NCBI RefSeq assembly: GCF_019977355.1
Contig: NZ_AP024655.1
Coordinates: forward strand, 4,836,001 to 4,900,000
Origin: Arthrobacter sp. NicSoilB8
Lineage (GTDB): Bacteria > Actinomycetota > Actinomycetes > Actinomycetales > Micrococcaceae
DNA length: 64,000 nt
Reading direction: 5' to 3'
This document shows, one piece after another, positions 18,321 to 58,641 of this stretch. The notes beneath the pieces were generated by a model that ran no database searches, was not told the DNA's origin, and saw nothing but the letters and a program-made list of their open reading frames with translations. A program made the position numbers and the translations under genes. Each line of letters opens with the position of its first letter. Position 1 is the first letter of the stretch.

Positions 18321-18743
18321 ATGGCTGAAAACAAGACCCAGACAACCGGCGCGTCCGTGGAGGACTTCCTCGCCGCCGTCGAGCATCCGGTCCGGCGCGG
18401 GGACGGGCTGCGCCTCCTGGCGCTGATGTCCAGGACCACGGGCCGGCCGGCGGAAATGTGGGGCCCGACGATTGTGGGATTCGGCCGCTACCACTACAAA
18501 TACGAGAGCGGACGGGAGGGAGACTCCCCCGCGGTCGGGTTCTCGCCCAGGAAGTCCAGCCTCTCCCTCTACGGCCTCACGTACGGGCTGGAAGCCGCCG
18601 AACTGCTCGGCAGCCTCGGGAAGCACAAGACCGGCGCCGGGTGCCTGTACGTCAACAAGCTCGACGACGTCGACGAGGCCGTGCTGGCGGAACTGATCCG
18701 GTTCGGCTACCGGTACGTCACCACGGTGCTGCACCAGGGCTAG
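18321..18743 (+). CDS. DUF1801 domain protein
   Basis: 140 residues matching the DUF1801 (YdhG-like) fold: a start TGASVEDFLAAVEHPVRRGD, then EMWGPTIVGFGRYHYKYESG and the C-terminal GAGCLYVNKLDDVDEAVLAE. The fold is related to the frataxin-like/YdhG group with no established activity. The ATG at 18321 follows the 12-bp repeats directly and no strong ribosome-binding site is visible. Confidence 0.82.
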   Translation: MAENKTQTTGASVEDFLAAVEHPVRRGDGLRLLALMSRTTGRPAEMWGPTIVGFGRYHYKYESGREGDSPAVGFSPRKSSLSLYGLTYGLEAAELLGSLGKHKTGAGCLYVNKLDDVDEAVLAELIRFGYRYVTTVLHQG

Positions 18744-18757
18744 GCCGGCCCGGCCCA

Positions 18758-18824
18758 AGCAACGCGGGGTCATTTACGGTCCATCCGGAGGTCCGGGATG
18801 GGCCGTAAATGACCCCGCGTTGCT
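18758..18824. repeat. Long palindromic element, copy 1 (family AGCAACGCGGGGTCA)
   Basis: Arms 18758-18786 and 18796-18824 pair over 29 positions with one G-T wobble (18780/18802), around the 9-nt loop GGAGGTCCG. The outer 15 bp, AGCAACGCGGGGTCA, are identical to those of a second element at 56871-56937. There is no T-run on either side, so it is not a classical terminator. It lies between the convergent DUF1801 and rplI genes. Confidence 0.9.
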
Positions 18825-18929: not shown

Positions 18930-19382
18930 CTACTTGCCTGCGACGACGTCGAGTTCGATCACAGCGGAAACGTCGTCGTGCAGACGGACGTTTGCCTGGT
19001 AGGAACCGGTCGACTTGATGTGTGCCGGCAGTTCAACCTTGCGCTTGTCGATGCGGCCCAGGCCAGCGGCCTCAACAGCGTCGGCCACGTCGCCCTGCTT
19101 GACGGTGCCGAACAGGCGTCCGGTCTCGCCGGCCTTGACGACCAGCTTGACCGGCTTGGCGGAGAGTGCAGCGGCCTGCTTCTGAGCGTCTTCCAGGGAA
19201 GCGTGCTCGCGGGCAACGCGGGCAGCCTTGATGGACTCAACCTGCTTCTCGCCACCCTTGGACCAGGTCAGGGCGAAGTTGCGTGGCAGCAGGTAGTTAC
19301 GTGCGTAACCGTCCTTGACCTCGACAACATCGCCAGCAGCACCGAGACCGGTTACTTCGTGGGTCAGAATGAGCTTTGCCAT
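18930..19382 (-). CDS. rplI: 50S ribosomal protein L9
   Basis: 150 residues. It starts [20 protein letters not shown] with the L9 signature [14 protein letters not shown], continues through the long connecting helix, and ends with the C-terminal rRNA-binding domain ([20 protein letters not shown]). It is last in the rpsF-ssb-rpsR-rplI operon, 17 nt after rpsR. L9 binds 23S rRNA at the base of the L1 stalk. Confidence 0.98.
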
Positions 19383-47237: not shown

Positions 47238-47373
47238 GGACATGCTCTCCCCTCGGTCCCGGGAATGGACATGTCCCCCAGGCACCACGGGACATGCCCT
47301 CCCCTCGGGCCAAGCAATGGACATCTTGGCACTATGTCCACTGCCGGACGCCAGGGGAGGGCATGTCCCGTGG
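47238..47373. repeat. Palindromic repeat element, GGACATG...CTCCCCT family
   Basis: Perfect 21-bp arms at 47285-47305 and 47353-47373 (beginning CCACGGGACATGCC) flank 47 bp, which itself contains TGGACAT...ATGTCCA. A related unit, GGACATGCTCTCCCCTCGG, starts at 47238, and the self-complementary GGACATGTCC lies at about 47267-47276. It fills most of the 271-bp gap between the broken dioxygenase and the permease gene; no gene is present there. Confidence 0.85.
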
Positions 47374-49873: not shown

Positions 49874-51224
49874 AGTTCCCCCTTGTTTCCGTTGCAGTTT
49901 CCGCTGCAGCGCCTTCATTGCAGTTCAGTTCCGCCCGCACCCGCCAGCCGCGGTCACCGGCGCGGCCGGCCTGCACGGTGCCGGCGTAGATCCTGGCCCG
50001 CTCCCGCATTCCGGCGATTCCCTGGCCGGTGCCGAGGGGCTCCGGTGCGTCGGGCTTGGTCTGCGCGCCGGCCCCTGGACTGCCGGATTCAACGGTTCCC
50101 CTGCCGTCGTCGACCACGTCAATGGTGACCAGGGAACCGTTCCGGACAATACTGACGTCCACGCGGCTGAGCGCACGTCCGTAGCGCAGCACATTGGTCA
50201 GCGACTCCTGCACGATCCTGTAGACGGTCAGCTGGAACGCCGCATCGCCGGGCAGGGACGGGCCGGTGTGCGTGTAGTGCAGCGGCAGGCCGGCGGTGCG
50301 GAAGCCCTCGAGCAGTTTGGCCAGGTTGTCCCCGGCCACCAGCGGCTCGCGCGGAGCGTGTCCGCCGGCGGAATCCTCGCGCAGCACGCCGAGGACGCGC
50401 CGCATGTCGGCCAGGGCGGTGCGTCCTGTCCGGGAGAGTTCGGCGAGAACGCCGGCGGCGCGCTCGGGATCCTTCTTGACCACGACGGCGGCGCCGTCCG
50501 ACAGGCTGATCATCACGGTCAGCGAGTGCGCCACGACGTCGTGCATTTCTCGCGCGATCCGGTTTCGTTCCGTGACCGAGCCCAGTTGCTGGGCCCGGGC
50601 GGCCCAGGCCGCGATCTCGTGCTCATGCTCGCGCCGCTGCCGGACCGATATCCCGATCCCGGTGGCGATCACGTTGGACAGGGCGATGCTGATGGCGGCC
50701 GCGATGCTCGTGACGAGCTGGAAGTTCTCCGGCGTGCTGACCGCCATGTCCGGAAGCCGCCCGTCCAGCGGGCCGGCGGCCAGCATGAAATACACGAGCA
50801 CCAGCGGCGCCGTCGTCAGGGCCAGGGCGGCCAGGGCGAAACGGCGCGTGCGGGCGACGGCCACGGCGTACAGCGAAAACCAGAGCCCGGCGGAGACATT
50901 GGATCCCCACGGATGCAGGTACGTGACGGCCAGTTCCAGTGCCCCCACGGCCGCCGCCACCTGCACGGGATAGGCGCGCCGGAACAGCAGGACCGGGGCG
51001 GCGGCCGCGAGCAGCGCGGCGACGGGCCAGTCGCCGTCGATCAGCGACTCCACCGCCGTGGGCGTGACCAGGACGAGGTAGCAGAGCACCACCAGGACAT
51101 CCATGACCCGCGGATTGGCCAGCAGGTAACGCCTGAGCCGTCCGCGCCGTCGGGCGGTGAGCTCGGCGAAGGACGCGTCAGCCGCTGCGGCTGACGCGTC
51201 CTTCACAGGCACTGCATCGATCAT
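49863..51224 (-). CDS. HisKA_3-type sensor histidine kinase
   Basis: 453 residues with five or six N-terminal membrane segments (about 40-200) and no large extracellular sensor loop. The phospho-acceptor His lies in [20 protein letters not shown] and the HATPase region in [13 protein letters not shown] and [16 protein letters not shown]. This DesK/LiaS-like layout usually senses the membrane or works with a transporter. It follows two ABC-transporter genes on the same strand, 30 nt after the permease stop. Confidence 0.9.
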
Positions 51225-54848: not shown

Positions 54849-56036
54849 TTACCTCGCGGGAAGGGACTTTGCGGCACCGGCGAGCAGCAGAGCCACCAGA
54901 ATCGGAATCCCGATCGCCAGCAGCGCGGTCCTGATCCCCGTCACATCGCCCAGGAAGCCCAGCAGGGGCGGCCCGGCGAGGAACGCGATGTAGCCCAGCG
55001 TGGACACGACGGACACCCGGGCGGCCGCCTTCCTGGGGTCATCCGCCGCGGCCGACATTCCGATCGGGAACGCCAGGGCCGCCCCGACGCCCCAGAGCAC
55101 GGCGCCGGCCGCGGCCAGCCAGATGCTACCGGCGAACACGAAGAGGCACAGGCCCGCGGCTGCCGCGGCCATGCTGGCGCGGAGAACGGCCACCCGGCCG
55201 TAGACGTCGATCGCGCGGCCGCCGAAGAAACGCATCGCGGTCATTGCCAGCACAAAGGCGGCGAACAGCAGCGCCCCCGTGGACTGTTCGGCGCCGAGGC
55301 CGTCAACCGCGGCCTTGGCAATCCAGTCGTTGCCGGCGCCCTCGGTCAAGGTGGCGCCCAGGACAACGACGCCAATCAGCAGCGTGCGGCTATCCCGCCA
55401 GGCTGACCCGCCCTTGGCATGGCCGGTGTCCCCTGCTTCGGGCAGGGCGGCGGCCAGATGGGGCAGGAAGTACCGGGGGGCCACCGCGGTCAGGACGGCG
55501 ACGACGGCGGCGATGACCAGCAGGTGTTCCGGGAGTCCGACCCCCAGGGTGGACAGGCCTGCGCCGATCAGGGCTCCGACGAAGGCCCCGCCGCTGAAGG
55601 CCGCGTGGAACTGCGGCATGATGGTGCGGCCGAGCCGGTGTTCGACGTCGGCGCCTTCGATGTTCTGGGAGACATCCCACAGTCCGACGCCGATTCCGAA
55701 GAAGAACAGGGCAATCGCCGTCCCCGGGACGGAGGCCGCCATCAGGGCCAGCGCCACGCCGACGCCGGCTGTCGCGGCAACGAGTCCGGCGCTGCGCACC
55801 GCGTTGGCCGTGCCGATCCGGCCCACGACGAACCCGGCCGTGGGGAGGGCGATCAGCGAGCCGACCGCCAGACACAGCAGCAGGGTTCCCATCTGGCCCG
55901 AGGTGATGTGCAGGATCTCCGTCACCGCGGGGATGCGGGCGGCCCAGCTGGCGAAGACCAGGCCGTTGATGCCGAAGACGAGGAAGGTGGCCCCGGCGGC
56001 GGCCTTCAGCTGGGGGCCGGTTGCGGTACTGGTCAT
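54849..56036 (-). CDS. MFS transporter (sugar/drug type)
   Basis: 395 residues with 12 transmembrane segments: ATFLVFGINGLVFASWAARI, MGTLLLCLAVGSLIALPTAG, GTAIALFFFGIGVGLWDVSQ, etc. The pattern WAARIPAVTEIL...GQMGTLLL and NIEGADVEHRLGRTIMPQFH is typical of a widespread MFS group often linked to DeoR/ROK regulators. Its ATG overlaps the DeoR stop (ATGA), so the regulator and transporter are made together. Substrate unknown, possibly a sugar derivative. Confidence 0.88.
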   Translation of the reverse strand: MTSTATGPQLKAAAGATFLVFGINGLVFASWAARIPAVTEILHITSGQMGTLLLCLAVGSLIALPTAGFVVGRIGTANAVRSAGLVAATAGVGVALALMAASVPGTAIALFFFGIGVGLWDVSQNIEGADVEHRLGRTIMPQFHAAFSGGAFVGALIGAGLSTLGVGLPEHLLVIAAVVAVLTAVAPRYFLPHLAAALPEAGDTGHAKGGSAWRDSRTLLIGVVVLGATLTEGAGNDWIAKAAVDGLGAEQSTGALLFAAFVLAMTAMRFFGGRAIDVYGRVAVLRASMAAAAAGLCLFVFAGSIWLAAAGAVLWGVGAALAFPIGMSAAADDPRKAAARVSVVSTLGYIAFLAGPPLLGFLGDVTGIRTALLAIGIPILVALLLAGAAKSLPAR

Positions 56037-56806
56037 ACGATCACTGCTTCCACCGAGTGTTGGGCGAGTTGGGCAAGTTCTTCCGTACTGAGCTGCCGGT
56101 CCGTCACGATGGCATCCACGGCGTCCAAGGATGCCACGAGGGCGACGGCACTGGCATTCCATTTGGACCCGGCACAGGCGACGATCACCCTGGCCGCGGA
56201 TTCGAGGCCGGCGCGCTTCACGGCGGCGTCGTCGAGATCGTGGGCCAGGAGTCCGTCTTTGAGGTTTACGGCGCAGGGCGTGACCACCGCGGCGTCGAAA
56301 CGCAGCGAGCGGATATTGGCTTCCGTCATCGGCCCGCGAAAGGACAGTTCACCCGGGACGAGGCTGCCGCCGGGCATCAGGACGTCGGGGCGGCGCCCCG
56401 CCGTCGGGTCATCCGGGGACAGTGCGGTGACGGCACGCAGCGACATTGGCATGATGGTCATCTCACGCTGGCGCAGCTGGCGGGCGATCTCCGTGGCCGT
56501 CGTGCCGCTGTCCAGCCAGACATGTCCCCTGTCCTGGAGCAGGGCCGCGACACCCGCGGCGATGCGTACCTTGGCGGCGTGGTCCTCCAGCTCGCGTTGC
56601 CCGTATTCCGGGTTCTCGCCGCTGAATACCAAGCTTCTGGCTCCGCCGTGTACCCTCCGGAGCACGCCGTGGAGCGCCAGGACGTCGAGGTCGCGCCGGA
56701 TCGTGGCCCCCGATGCGCCGCAGGCGGTCATCAGTTCGTCCACCGTCACATGCTCCCGGCTGCGCAGCAGTTCGCCGATCAGGCGGTGCCGCTCGTCAGT
56801 GCTCAT
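56033..56806 (-). CDS. DeoR-family transcriptional repressor
   Basis: About 257 residues. The N-terminal helix-turn-helix has the DeoR signature HVTVDELMTACGASGATIRR, DLDVLALHGVLRRVHGGARS. The C-terminal sugar-phosphate-binding domain includes VWLDSGTTATEIARQL, SFRGPMTEANIRSLRFDAAV and IVACAGSKWNASAVA. ATG 56806 is chosen; a TTG at 56812 is also in frame. It probably represses its own operon with the MFS gene, using the palindrome just upstream. Confidence 0.9.
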   Translation of the reverse strand: MSTDERHRLIGELLRSREHVTVDELMTACGASGATIRRDLDVLALHGVLRRVHGGARSLVFSGENPEYGQRELEDHAAKVRIAAGVAALLQDRGHVWLDSGTTATEIARQLRQREMTIMPMSLRAVTALSPDDPTAGRRPDVLMPGGSLVPGELSFRGPMTEANIRSLRFDAAVVTPCAVNLKDGLLAHDLDDAAVKRAGLESAARVIVACAGSKWNASAVALVASLDAVDAIVTDRQLSTEELAQLAQHSVEAVIV

Positions 56807-56825
56807 GCTCAAACGCTAACACTTT

Positions 56826-56870: not shown

Positions 56871-56937
56871 AGCAACGCGGGGTCAGATACGGCCCGTAAC
56901 CTCCCCCGGAATGGACCGTATCTGACCCCGCGTTGCT
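56871..56937. repeat. Long palindromic element, copy 2 (family AGCAACGCGGGGTCA)
   Basis: Perfect 22-bp arms at 56871-56892 and 56916-56937 (23 bp when the flanking C/G pair is counted) surround a 23-nt centre. The outer 15 bp equal copy 1 at 18758. The next positions differ (GATACGG here, TTTACGG there), yet both arms changed together, so pairing is preserved. It lies between the ABC-F stop and the deoR-like promoter; no T-run follows on either strand. Confidence 0.9.
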
Positions 56938-56958: not shown

Positions 56959-58641
56959 CTAGCGGGCGCGTTCGACGCGCTTTTCGTCCCAGACCGGTTC
57001 GGCCGATTCGTAGACCTTGCCGTCGGAACCGAAGACCAGGAAGCGGTCGAAGGTGCGGGCGAACCAGCGGTCGTGGGTGACCGCCAGGACGGTGCCCTCG
57101 AAGTGGTCGATCGCCCGTTCCAGCGCCTCGGCCGAGTGCAGGTCCAGGTTGTCCGTGGGCTCGTCGAGCAGCAGCAGGGTGGCCCCGGAGAGCTGGAGGA
57201 GCAGGATCTGGAAGCGTGCCTGCTGGCCGCCGGAGAGGGATTCGTACTTCTGCTCGGACTGCCCGGCGAGGCCGTAGCCGTCCAGGGCGCCGGCGGCGGC
57301 TTCGCGGCCCAGCCCGGAGCGGTGCTCGTCGCCCCGGTGCAGGATCTCCAGCAGGGTCTTGCCCAGCAGGTCGGGCCGGACGTGGGTCTGGGCGAAGAAG
57401 CCGGGCCGGATCCGGGCGCCGAGTTTCACGGTGCCCTCGTGCGGGACCTCCGCGATCTCGACGTCGGAGACCGGCAGGTGTTCCCGCTCCGGATCGGTGC
57501 CGCCGGTGGCGAGCAGGCGCAGGAAGTGGCTCTTGCCCGAACCGTTGGATCCGAGGACGCCCACCCGGTCGCCAAACCAGATCTCGGTGGAGAACGGCTT
57601 CATGAGGCCCGTTAGTTCCAGCTTTTCGGCCACGATGGCGCGCTTGGCGGTGCGTCCGCCCTTCAGCCGCATCTTTACGTTCTGCTCGATGGGCAGGGCC
57701 TCGGGCGGGCCGGCCTCGAGGAACTTCGCGAGCCGGGTCTGGGCGGCGTGGTACCGGTTGGCCATGTCGGAGCGGAAAGCGGCCTTGTTCTTGTACATGT
57801 TGACGAGTTCCTTGAGCTTCACGTGCTCCTCGTCCCAGCGCTTGCGCAGCTCCTCGAAGCGCGCGTTCCGATCCGCGCGGGCGTCAACGTAGGAGCCGAA
57901 CCCGCCGCCGTGGACCCAGGCGCCGGCTCCGTTGATGCCGGGTTCCAGCGTGACGATGCGGCCCGCGGCGTTGTTGAGTAGTTCGCGGTCGTGGCTGATG
58001 AAGAACACGGTCTTTTTCGACTCGTTGAGCTTGGCCTCGAGCCAGCGCTTGCCCGGGACGTCAAGGTAGTTGTCCGGCTCGTCAAGGAGCAGCAGTTCAT
58101 CGGGTCCGGCGAAGAGGGCCTCGAGGACCAGCCGTTTCTGCTCGCCGCCGGAGAGGCTCGACGCCGGGCGGTGCTGGGCGCGGTCGAACGGCAGGCCAAG
58201 GGCCGCCATGCAGACCTCATCCCAGACGGTCTCGACGTCATAGCCGCCCGCGTCGCCCCAGTCCACGATCGCCTGGGCGTAGTCCATCTGGGTGGGCTCG
58301 TCGTCGTGCTCCATCATGGCGAGCTCCGCCTCGTCCACGGCACGCGCGGCGGCGGCCAGGGCCGGCGGGGCCGCGGAAACCAGGAGGTCGCGGACCGTGG
58401 AGTCGTCCCGGACCTGGCCCACGAACTGGCGCATGATCCCCATGTTGCCGGAGCGGCCGATCACGCCTTCATCGGGAACGAGATCGCCGGAAATGATCCG
58501 GAACAGTGTGGTCTTGCCGGTTCCGTTCGGCCCGATCAGCGCCGTCTTGGTGCCGTCCGGGACCTTGAATGTCACCCCGTTGAGCAGCTGGGTGCCGTCG
58601 GAGAGGAAGTAGTCGATGCCGGAAACGTCAATATGAGCCAC
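56959..58641 (-). CDS. ABC-F family ATPase (ribosome-associated type)
   Basis: 560 residues with two ABC domains and no membrane segments. Domain 1: Walker A IGPNGTGKTT, signature SSLSGGEQKRL, Walker B LLLLDEPDNYLD. A charged linker follows (~245-330, KRWDEEHVKLKELVNMYKNK). Domain 2: GSNGSGKSH, ESLSGGQQARF, LLLLDEPTDNLD. ABC-F proteins act on ribosomes, either in translation control or antibiotic resistance. The class cannot be fixed here, though the linker is moderate in length. GTG 58641 start after GGGAAGA. Confidence 0.93.
   Translation of the reverse strand: MAHIDVSGIDYFLSDGTQLLNGVTFKVPDGTKTALIGPNGTGKTTLFRIISGDLVPDEGVIGRSGNMGIMRQFVGQVRDDSTVRDLLVSAAPPALAAAARAVDEAELAMMEHDDEPTQMDYAQAIVDWGDAGGYDVETVWDEVCMAALGLPFDRAQHRPASSLSGGEQKRLVLEALFAGPDELLLLDEPDNYLDVPGKRWLEAKLNESKKTVFFISHDRELLNNAAGRIVTLEPGINGAGAWVHGGGFGSYVDARADRNARFEELRKRWDEEHVKLKELVNMYKNKAAFRSDMANRYHAAQTRLAKFLEAGPPEALPIEQNVKMRLKGGRTAKRAIVAEKLELTGLMKPFSTEIWFGDRVGVLGSNGSGKSHFLRLLATGGTDPEREHLPVSDVEIAEVPHEGTVKLGARIRPGFFAQTHVRPDLLGKTLLEILHRGDEHRSGLGREAAAGALDGYGLAGQSEQKYESLSGGQQARFQILLLQLSGATLLLLDEPTDNLDLHSAEALERAIDHFEGTVLAVTHDRWFARTFDRFLVFGSDGKVYESAEPVWDEKRVERAR

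Follow-up and report, generated by a model that had tools for sequence, protein, structure and literature searches.

The closest described counterparts of the palindromes analyzed here are the REP elements, dispersed extragenic palindromes at gene 3' ends that form repeat-specific pairs with a flanked partner gene (PMC3733652); this partner, the RAYT (TnpA_REP), is single-copy and vertically inherited (PMC8049555). In the account given in PMC3733652, RAYT is the one known partner enzyme class of REP-type repeats, some REP families are without a known partner, and the CGTC-tagged REPs apparently lack a dedicated transposase. Inverted repeats are also recognized by streptococcal AbiEi, the antitoxin of a type IV toxin-antitoxin system, which is described as binding each 23-bp half of its repeat separately, and in the model of its authors the outer ~11 bp (TGTTGCTTTTA) are assigned to the winged helix, the remainder to the second domain (PMC3985639). 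In the case of IS1272, inverted-repeat targets are reported to be replaced by the incoming element without target-site duplication (PMC5678879). Here we describe a palindrome family, P1, from Arthrobacter sp. NicSoilB8, which is probably a dispersed REP-like element whose partner is a single-copy, vertically inherited AbiEi-Vsr-like nuclease encoded between two P1 copies.

The window (the whole 64-kb stretch of DNA that was analyzed) contains two P1 palindromes (family-1) of 67 bp each, neither assigned to a strand, at 18758..18824 (copy 1) and 56871..56937 (copy 2). In copy 1, the left outer block CAACGCGGGGTCA (18760..18772, + strand) is followed by the left spacer (18773..18778, +), which is variable across the P1 family and pairs with the right spacer (18804..18809, - strand); the 13-nt loop (18785..18797, +) recurs unchanged, in reverse orientation, in an element with unrelated flanks at C1:1452754, and the reverse complement of the outer block lies at 18810..18822 (-). 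In copy 2, the left outer block CAACGCGGGGTCA occupies 56873..56885 (+), the 13-nt loop 56898..56910 (+), and the reverse complement of the block 56923..56935 (-). The first-pass annotation had reported both palindromes, with common 15-bp outer arms and a paired inner difference between the copies (TTTACGG/CCGTAAA versus GATACGG/CCGTATC), and was correct in each respect. Copy 1 is located 14 bp downstream of the stop of a + strand ORF ending at 18743 and 105 bp from the stop of ORF 18930-19382 (-), read as rplI; copy 2 is 21 bp from the stop of ORF 56959-58641 (-), read as an ABC-F protein, and 58 bp upstream of ORF 56033-56812 (-), read as a DeoR-type regulator (these names come from ORF reading alone). 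Both strands of both copies fold, as RNA, at -58.6 to -62.2 kcal/mol (z -9.2 to -10.6), and none of 200 shuffled sequences was as stable; a known RNA family was ruled out given that Rfam produced no match above the gathering score in the 64-kb window. A hairpin scan of the window also detected an 89-bp inverted repeat at 47285-47373 (arms longer than 20 bp, by eye unrelated to P1), which is as strong as both P1 copies, and one weaker extra hairpin at 51168-51204.

P1 extends far beyond these two copies. The 15-mer AGCAACGCGGGGTCA occurs exactly 88 times in the 5.17-Mb genome (0 times when the pattern is read backwards), which contains 68 whole 67-bp elements at no more than 3 mismatches in 30 positions (control, 0) and 70 copies at no more than 2 mismatches in 24 positions, 65 of the latter exact. 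With the own genome counted, 90 of 150 same-genus genomes carry at least one copy, the maximum being 78. The proposal of a dispersed, REP-like palindrome family that a search of this genome and its relatives would reveal was thus borne out. A scan of named genomes yielded at least 80 loci, all of them, among the matches listed, from Arthrobacter, Pseudarthrobacter, Paenarthrobacter or a Micrococcaceae MAG; viral contigs contained no exact match to the P1 pattern, on which ground a viral origin of P1 was ruled out. On contig C1 of the own genome, the stretch between ~1.95 and 3.2 Mb contains exact P1 arms at no more than 4 places, a lower density than in the rest of the contig; possibly, P1 is rarer toward the terminus.

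The length of the element is fixed. Among 199 candidates from a pooled scan, the gap between the 11-nt arm cores is 37 nt in 189, 36 in 4 and 38 in 2, that is, a 67-bp element in 189 of 195, the remaining 4 candidates being of odd lengths, spurious or rearranged. In the 186 of the 189 fixed-length elements that have 30-bp flanks (56 from the own genome and 130 from other genomes), each arm consists of a nearly invariant 13-bp outer block at positions 3-15, a variable 6-bp spacer (16-21), GCCC (22-25) and, mostly, AT (26-27), and the arms enclose a 13-nt loop that is nearly free in sequence. The invariance of the blocks across these elements is largely by construction because the elements were found through the blocks, mostly by exact or near-exact match; in a less block-biased check, a third mismatch was allowed in four other genomes, and no extra copies appeared. 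The 7-nt inner segment is the same on both arms in 77 of the 186 elements, compared to 12 expected after re-dealing the arms (maximum 22 in 1000 shuffles), and differs between the arms in 109. Hence, the preservation of pairing despite sequence change that had been noted in the window is real, and co-variation exceeds the shuffles elsewhere as well, but the pairing is incomplete and compensation not obligatory. In the 20-base outward flank, no position is fixed, and the flanks do not pair as an extended stem (3.25 of 10 positions paired vs 3.18 expected). One P1 copy (L126 210-276) carries an 8-bp tandem duplication inside one arm, for which slippage or repair is possible.

The placement of P1 is where terminators lie. 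Gene context was assigned with a simple codon-based gene caller for the 168 elements whose loci span 2.5 kb or more: 74 elements lie between convergent genes, 65 are tandem near the upstream 3' end, 6 are divergent, 3 are inside a called ORF and 20 are at a locus edge, compared with 246 convergent, 882 tandem and 202 divergent among all adjacent gene pairs of the same loci. The median distance from the stop codon to P1 is 11-14 bp. Among the 186 elements, T accounts for 50, 59 and 43% of the first three bases outside each end, so that the observation of no T-run, although true of both window copies, does not carry over to the family, which is T-rich at these bases. Classical REPs are likewise described as sitting at gene 3' ends (PMC3733652). 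At the ends of the 186 elements, direct repeats of k=2-5, 8 and 9 are no commoner than with shuffled partners, and one of k=6 was seen against 0.03 expected; in the absence of a target-site duplication, P1 does not qualify as a MITE of a DDE transposase. Nor do its ends fit the core-site consensus of attC-like recombination sites.

Palindrome-bounded nuclease genes are present in one of two close species, G042 and G093, that were compared at P1 sites. Where G093 has a P1 palindrome, G042 contains two insertions, each carrying one gene (at L298 9761-10818 and L294 8519-9684) bounded by other palindromes, P2 (62 bp, 8 copies across 5 of the loci examined) and P3. Both products, by appearance, combine an AbiEi-type region with a DUF559/MTES_1575 (Vsr-like REase) domain; one scores above the Pfam cut-offs for AbiEi_4 and DUF559 and the other below, and the two align with each other at E 8e-10. 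These genes led to the prediction of a similar gene between P1 copies in the own genome. Among the 7 nuclease homologs encoded there, one (C1:3853340-3854263, 308 aa) has P1 on both sides and a second (L303) is bounded on both sides by P4, a palindrome with 28 copies in this genome, including the two at L303 (control, 0); within ~350 bp, a single hairpin accompanies three of the remaining homologs and no hairpin the last two.

The P1 nuclease consists of an AbiEi-like DNA-binding region (residues ~6-202) and a Vsr/homing-endonuclease-like domain (residues ~205-308). Structure comparison assigns residues 6-202 to the AbiEi fold, with a winged helix and the AbiEi second domain (PADLOC AbiEi match, 1.3e-10), and the C-terminal domain shows a Vsr-like fold; Foldseek alone gives no PDB match at E≤0.001 among the structures listed (best, 3r3p at 0.011), and the scores for Pfam DUF559 and MTES_1575 are below cut-off. 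Across 51 homologs, there is no variation at E210 and D242 and almost none at D255, H259 and D268; conservation of this kind is expected of a working nuclease. Compared with the homing endonuclease I-Bth0305I and Vsr, for which the family label is EDxHD, the P1 nuclease is distinct in being flanked by palindromes and was not seen in an intron or intein.

Gene and palindrome are linked at one conserved locus. Among the 30 orthologs that are the best matches (72-100% identity), 28 have P1 on both sides and 2 on one side; one of the latter, L334, with P1 22 bp from the gene, is one-sided owing to a contig end 75 bp away on the other side. In the 28 two-sided loci, the upstream P1 ends 57-68 bp before the start of the ortholog match. 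All 29 orthologs with full flanks fall into one linkage group on each side (tblastx, single linkage), and the listed matches include one match of at least 70% identity per genome, so that the gene is single-copy. The common neighbors therefore indicate a single locus, passed on vertically, for the P1 nuclease, and a mobile palindrome-nuclease-palindrome unit is ruled out for P1 by the same 29 testable loci. The two P1 copies around the gene appear often to be relatives of each other: in the 27 of 30 loci where the flanking loops were compared (L338, which has a 36-nt gap, L320 and L334 were left out), the loops match within 3 of 13 positions in the same orientation in 11 pairs and inverted in 4 (overlapping classes), the background of loop matches between genomes being 4.6%.

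The gene is found only in P1 genomes. Orthologs (best E <1e-125, plus one partial 78% match in G051) are present in 41 of the 150 genomes, each of which carries at least 7 P1 copies, whereas the 60 P1-free genomes have no ortholog. The other 49 of the 90 P1 genomes are without an ortholog, 20 of these with at least 10 copies and up to 49; therefore, either P1 persists without the nuclease or the gene was lost or missed. Among the nearest relatives of the own genome (70 copies, with the gene) in the rplI region (30 loci), G117 has 35 P1 copies and the gene, and G087 (4 copies), G019 (3) and G050 (27) are without it, so that the rule linking gene and palindrome has exceptions among near relatives. 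Copies exact at all 24 block positions comprise 846 of 1048 in genomes with an ortholog vs 321 of 517 in those without; the per-genome median of the exact share is 0.82 (41 genomes with ortholog) vs 0.62 (27 without, with at least 5 copies), at p 9e-5, and p-values across genomes are too small because the genomes are related. Spacer pairing differs slightly, 398 of 504 with the nuclease vs 213 of 300 without (p 0.013 on non-independent cells), in a sample of 84 vs 50 elements from 7 genomes chosen by availability of sequence, where four of the five nuclease-free genomes contributed only exact-block copies.

Examination of related nucleases shows that the type of palindrome follows the nuclease clade. 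A tree of 51 sequences supports the P1 clade at 100/100, and its sister clade (57-62% identity, support 88/95) is accompanied by another palindrome, P5, GTTGCYCTATCA...; among 10 loci of the sister clade, 8 carry P5 on both flanks and 2 on a single flank, and their neighborhoods link in 9 of the 10 to one side of the gene and in 8 to the opposite side. P5 is 61 bp long in all 14 pattern matches, and its TCA-to-TGA distance is 43 nt, as in P1; the outer block is changed between P1 and P5, and the inner geometry is unchanged. A clade with ~50% identity (L350-L359, support 97/92), which many of the 150 genomes carry, lacks flanking hairpins at all 10 loci examined; it is a natural negative control and, possibly, a domesticated form. 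Among 26 loci from outside the genus (one per genome, the best matches out of 121 of 149 genomes with a match), a hairpin is present on both sides in 9, on one side in 6 and on neither in 11, with 0 hairpins in 52 control windows; 7 of the 9 two-sided loci share at least an 11-mer across the gene, that is, the same palindrome (7 of 26). The P1 and P5 nuclease clades are told apart by 18 residues, of which 14 map to the second AbiEi domain, 2 to the nuclease domain and 2 to the winged helix, so that the data do not bear out the winged helix as the seat of the P1/P5 difference; the preponderance of the second domain, though it is the outer block that differs, speaks against a simple assignment of the winged helix to the outer block.

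P1 copies disperse and turn over. Three pairs of own-genome elements have identical 13-nt loops (0 differences) in unrelated flanks, which indicates that they were moved or copied; the spacer differences are fully paired in the pair that includes window copy 1 and only partly paired in the other two. At the rplI site of copy 1, P1 is present at the same place in 15 of the 30 species loci (own included; one of these elements is truncated, and another has a degraded arm) and missing from the other 15, by eye. For sites with P1 in one of G042 and G093, 18 queries were used, of which 13 were readable by eye (for L257, L268 and L269, the alignment covered a single side), 4 had no match in the stretches compared, and one (L241) matched nothing but the genome from which it came. 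At the 13 sites, the other species has an ordinary hairpin in 5 cases, another palindrome family or palindrome-bounded insertion in 3, a decayed copy in 1, nothing in 2, and 2 are ambiguous; thus, different hairpins take each other's place at a given gene end. The alternation of hairpins at the same sites is reminiscent of IS1272; however, IS1272 is an insertion sequence, whereas the replacing unit here is a palindrome or a palindrome-bounded nuclease gene.

In situ comparison of 16 orthologous P1 elements of these two species (for 6 of the 22 in G042, no counterpart was present in the G093 set compared) revealed 6 differences in 544 block positions vs 34 in 464 positions of spacer, AT and loop (p 3e-7), a comparison that is less affected by selection of the elements, chosen at no more than 3 of 24 block mismatches, but not free of it. 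The paired spacer alone changed at 16 of 192 positions and the flanks at 345 of 4642; one orthologous copy has, by eye, decayed past 3 of 24 mismatches. The blocks are kept and the spacer is changed, though pairing alone would protect both, which suggests a reader of the sequence of the P1 blocks. In this one genome pair, the 6 block changes divide into 4 in the genome without the nuclease and 2 in its counterpart.

A 1268-bp IS30-family element (NF033563 at 1.2e-77 for the L033 copy) interrupts the loop of three P1 copies (L032, L033 and L034, at G000:C1:1432468, 3908206 and 4704320), with 3-bp duplications, CGA and CGG, in two of the three and an ambiguous case in the third; the split loop in L034 is that of an intact copy ~14 kb off, at C1:4689957. 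Being an insertion into the P1 loop, this element was ruled out as the source of the palindrome. Its subterminal repeats carry TAGCAACGC and, at one end, TAGCAACGCGGGG, which are similar to the P1 outer block, and this similarity may be linked to target finding by the IS.

Compared with REP/RAYT and REPtrons, P1 is alike in consisting of multi-copy extragenic palindromes, in the gene-end context, in the flanked partner and in vertical inheritance, but its partner is a non-homologous nuclease of AbiEi and Vsr-like parts. The RAYT that the first-pass annotation suggested as a cognate enzyme was not found: this genome has 0 matches to the Y1 (HUH) transposase profile (Y1_Tnp, PF01797), on which ground a RAYT/IS200-type mobilizer was rejected for this genome, and the same search was positive in 5 of 14 control genomes. 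The fixed 67 bp of P1 contrast with the 20-40 bp given for REPs in PMC3733652, and the tags GTAG/CGTC of the two large REP super-families are absent from P1, the ends of which are AGCAACG/CGTTGCT (not every REP is defined by a tag). The CGTC-tagged REPs resemble P1 as REP-like palindromes apparently without a dedicated transposase and differ in sequence, and the treatment of them in PMC3733652, so far as seen, names no nuclease partner. With the AbiEi antitoxin and its 23-3-23 inverted-repeat box, P1 and its nuclease share the fold and sequence of residues 6-202 and half-sites with an outer conserved and an inner part, as the box is described in PMC3985639; the P1 partner, however, is fused to a nuclease, and the P1 sites are not confined to its own promoter but dispersed at gene ends.

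We infer that the nuclease binds, cuts and spreads P1. One monomer would occupy each P1 half, its outer 13-bp block and inner GCCC being divided between the winged helix and the second AbiEi domain, and the two Vsr-like nuclease domains would meet over the 13-nt center. A nick or cut at the center of P1, or at other gene-end hairpins, could lead to templated repair, through which the palindrome would be copied, restored and spread, other hairpins would be replaced, and the blocks would be kept. Vsr nicks at mismatches; if the P1 nuclease does likewise, arm-to-arm repair would also yield paired changes. The upstream P1 copy may double as an operator of the nuclease gene, and the gene-end hairpin is probably also a bidirectional terminator, a role that would account for the tolerance of P1 at gene ends by the host. 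The alternative initial reading of P1 as a protein-binding site used genome-wide fits an AbiEi/Vsr-like partner, with the P1 copies as its putative sites.

Arguably, P1 could be nothing but a host-selected bidirectional terminator, the spread of which is incidental and two copies of which the nuclease merely uses as operator and terminator. The context of the elements is compatible with such a role (74 convergent and 65 tandem 3'-side of 168, a median of 11-14 bp past the stop), as are the T enrichment just outside both ends, the very stable hairpins and the ordinary hairpin in the other species at 5 of the 13 one-sided sites (by eye). We nevertheless consider this unlikely: a terminator needs no fixed sequence, yet 6 of 544 block positions changed in situ vs 16 of 192 in the paired spacer, and neither the constant length (67 bp in 189 of 195), nor the absence of the ortholog from P1-free genomes, nor the switch to P5 with the nuclease clade would be explained.

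Quite improbable, in our assessment, is a regulon of which P1 is the operator, with the AbiEi-like region as a genome-wide repressor and the nuclease domain vestigial, because P1 is located behind genes and not in promoters, and because the invariance of E210 and D242 and near invariance of D255, H259 and D268 in the 51 homologs are as expected of a working nuclease; the binding of AbiEi to inverted repeats in its own promoter, as described in PMC3985639, and the end of the upstream P1 57-68 bp before the ortholog match start in all 28 two-sided loci would agree with it. Harder still to credit is a miniature element spread by another transposase, with the nuclease gene as a passenger caught between two copies. 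The identical-loop copies in unrelated flanks do attest to dispersal, and P1 is indeed a target of the IS30-family element, which inserts into the loop, but there is no target-site duplication, and the arrangement recurs with P5, P2, P3 and P4 and in other genera, which would require too many independent passengers. The reading of P1 as a REP-like element with the AbiEi-Vsr-like nuclease as its partner remains the probable one. Whether it extends further is, in our estimate, an even call: there would be a class of palindrome-nuclease pairs, widespread in actinobacteria and non-homologous to REP/RAYT, in which an AbiEi-Vsr-like protein reads the two half-sites of its own palindrome family and cuts gene-end hairpins, and so copies, repairs and exchanges palindromes genome-wide, several such pairs would compete for terminator sites, and arm-to-arm repair would yield compensatory changes that mimic RNA covariation.

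P1 and its nuclease together look like a new kind of genome-wide bacterial repeat system. We found no description of a pairing between a palindrome and an AbiEi-Vsr-like nuclease in the CC-licensed PMC literature, preprints being outside the scope, and a prior description is possible. If the proposed partnership is true, a non-homologous enzyme would fill the role of RAYT, and this genomic lifestyle would have evolved more than once. It would further suggest a function for actinobacterial proteins that are now filed as AbiEi or DUF559 and provide natural pairs of nucleases and sites with clear half-site codes, and it would serve as a warning that paired changes in hairpins need not reflect selection at the RNA level.
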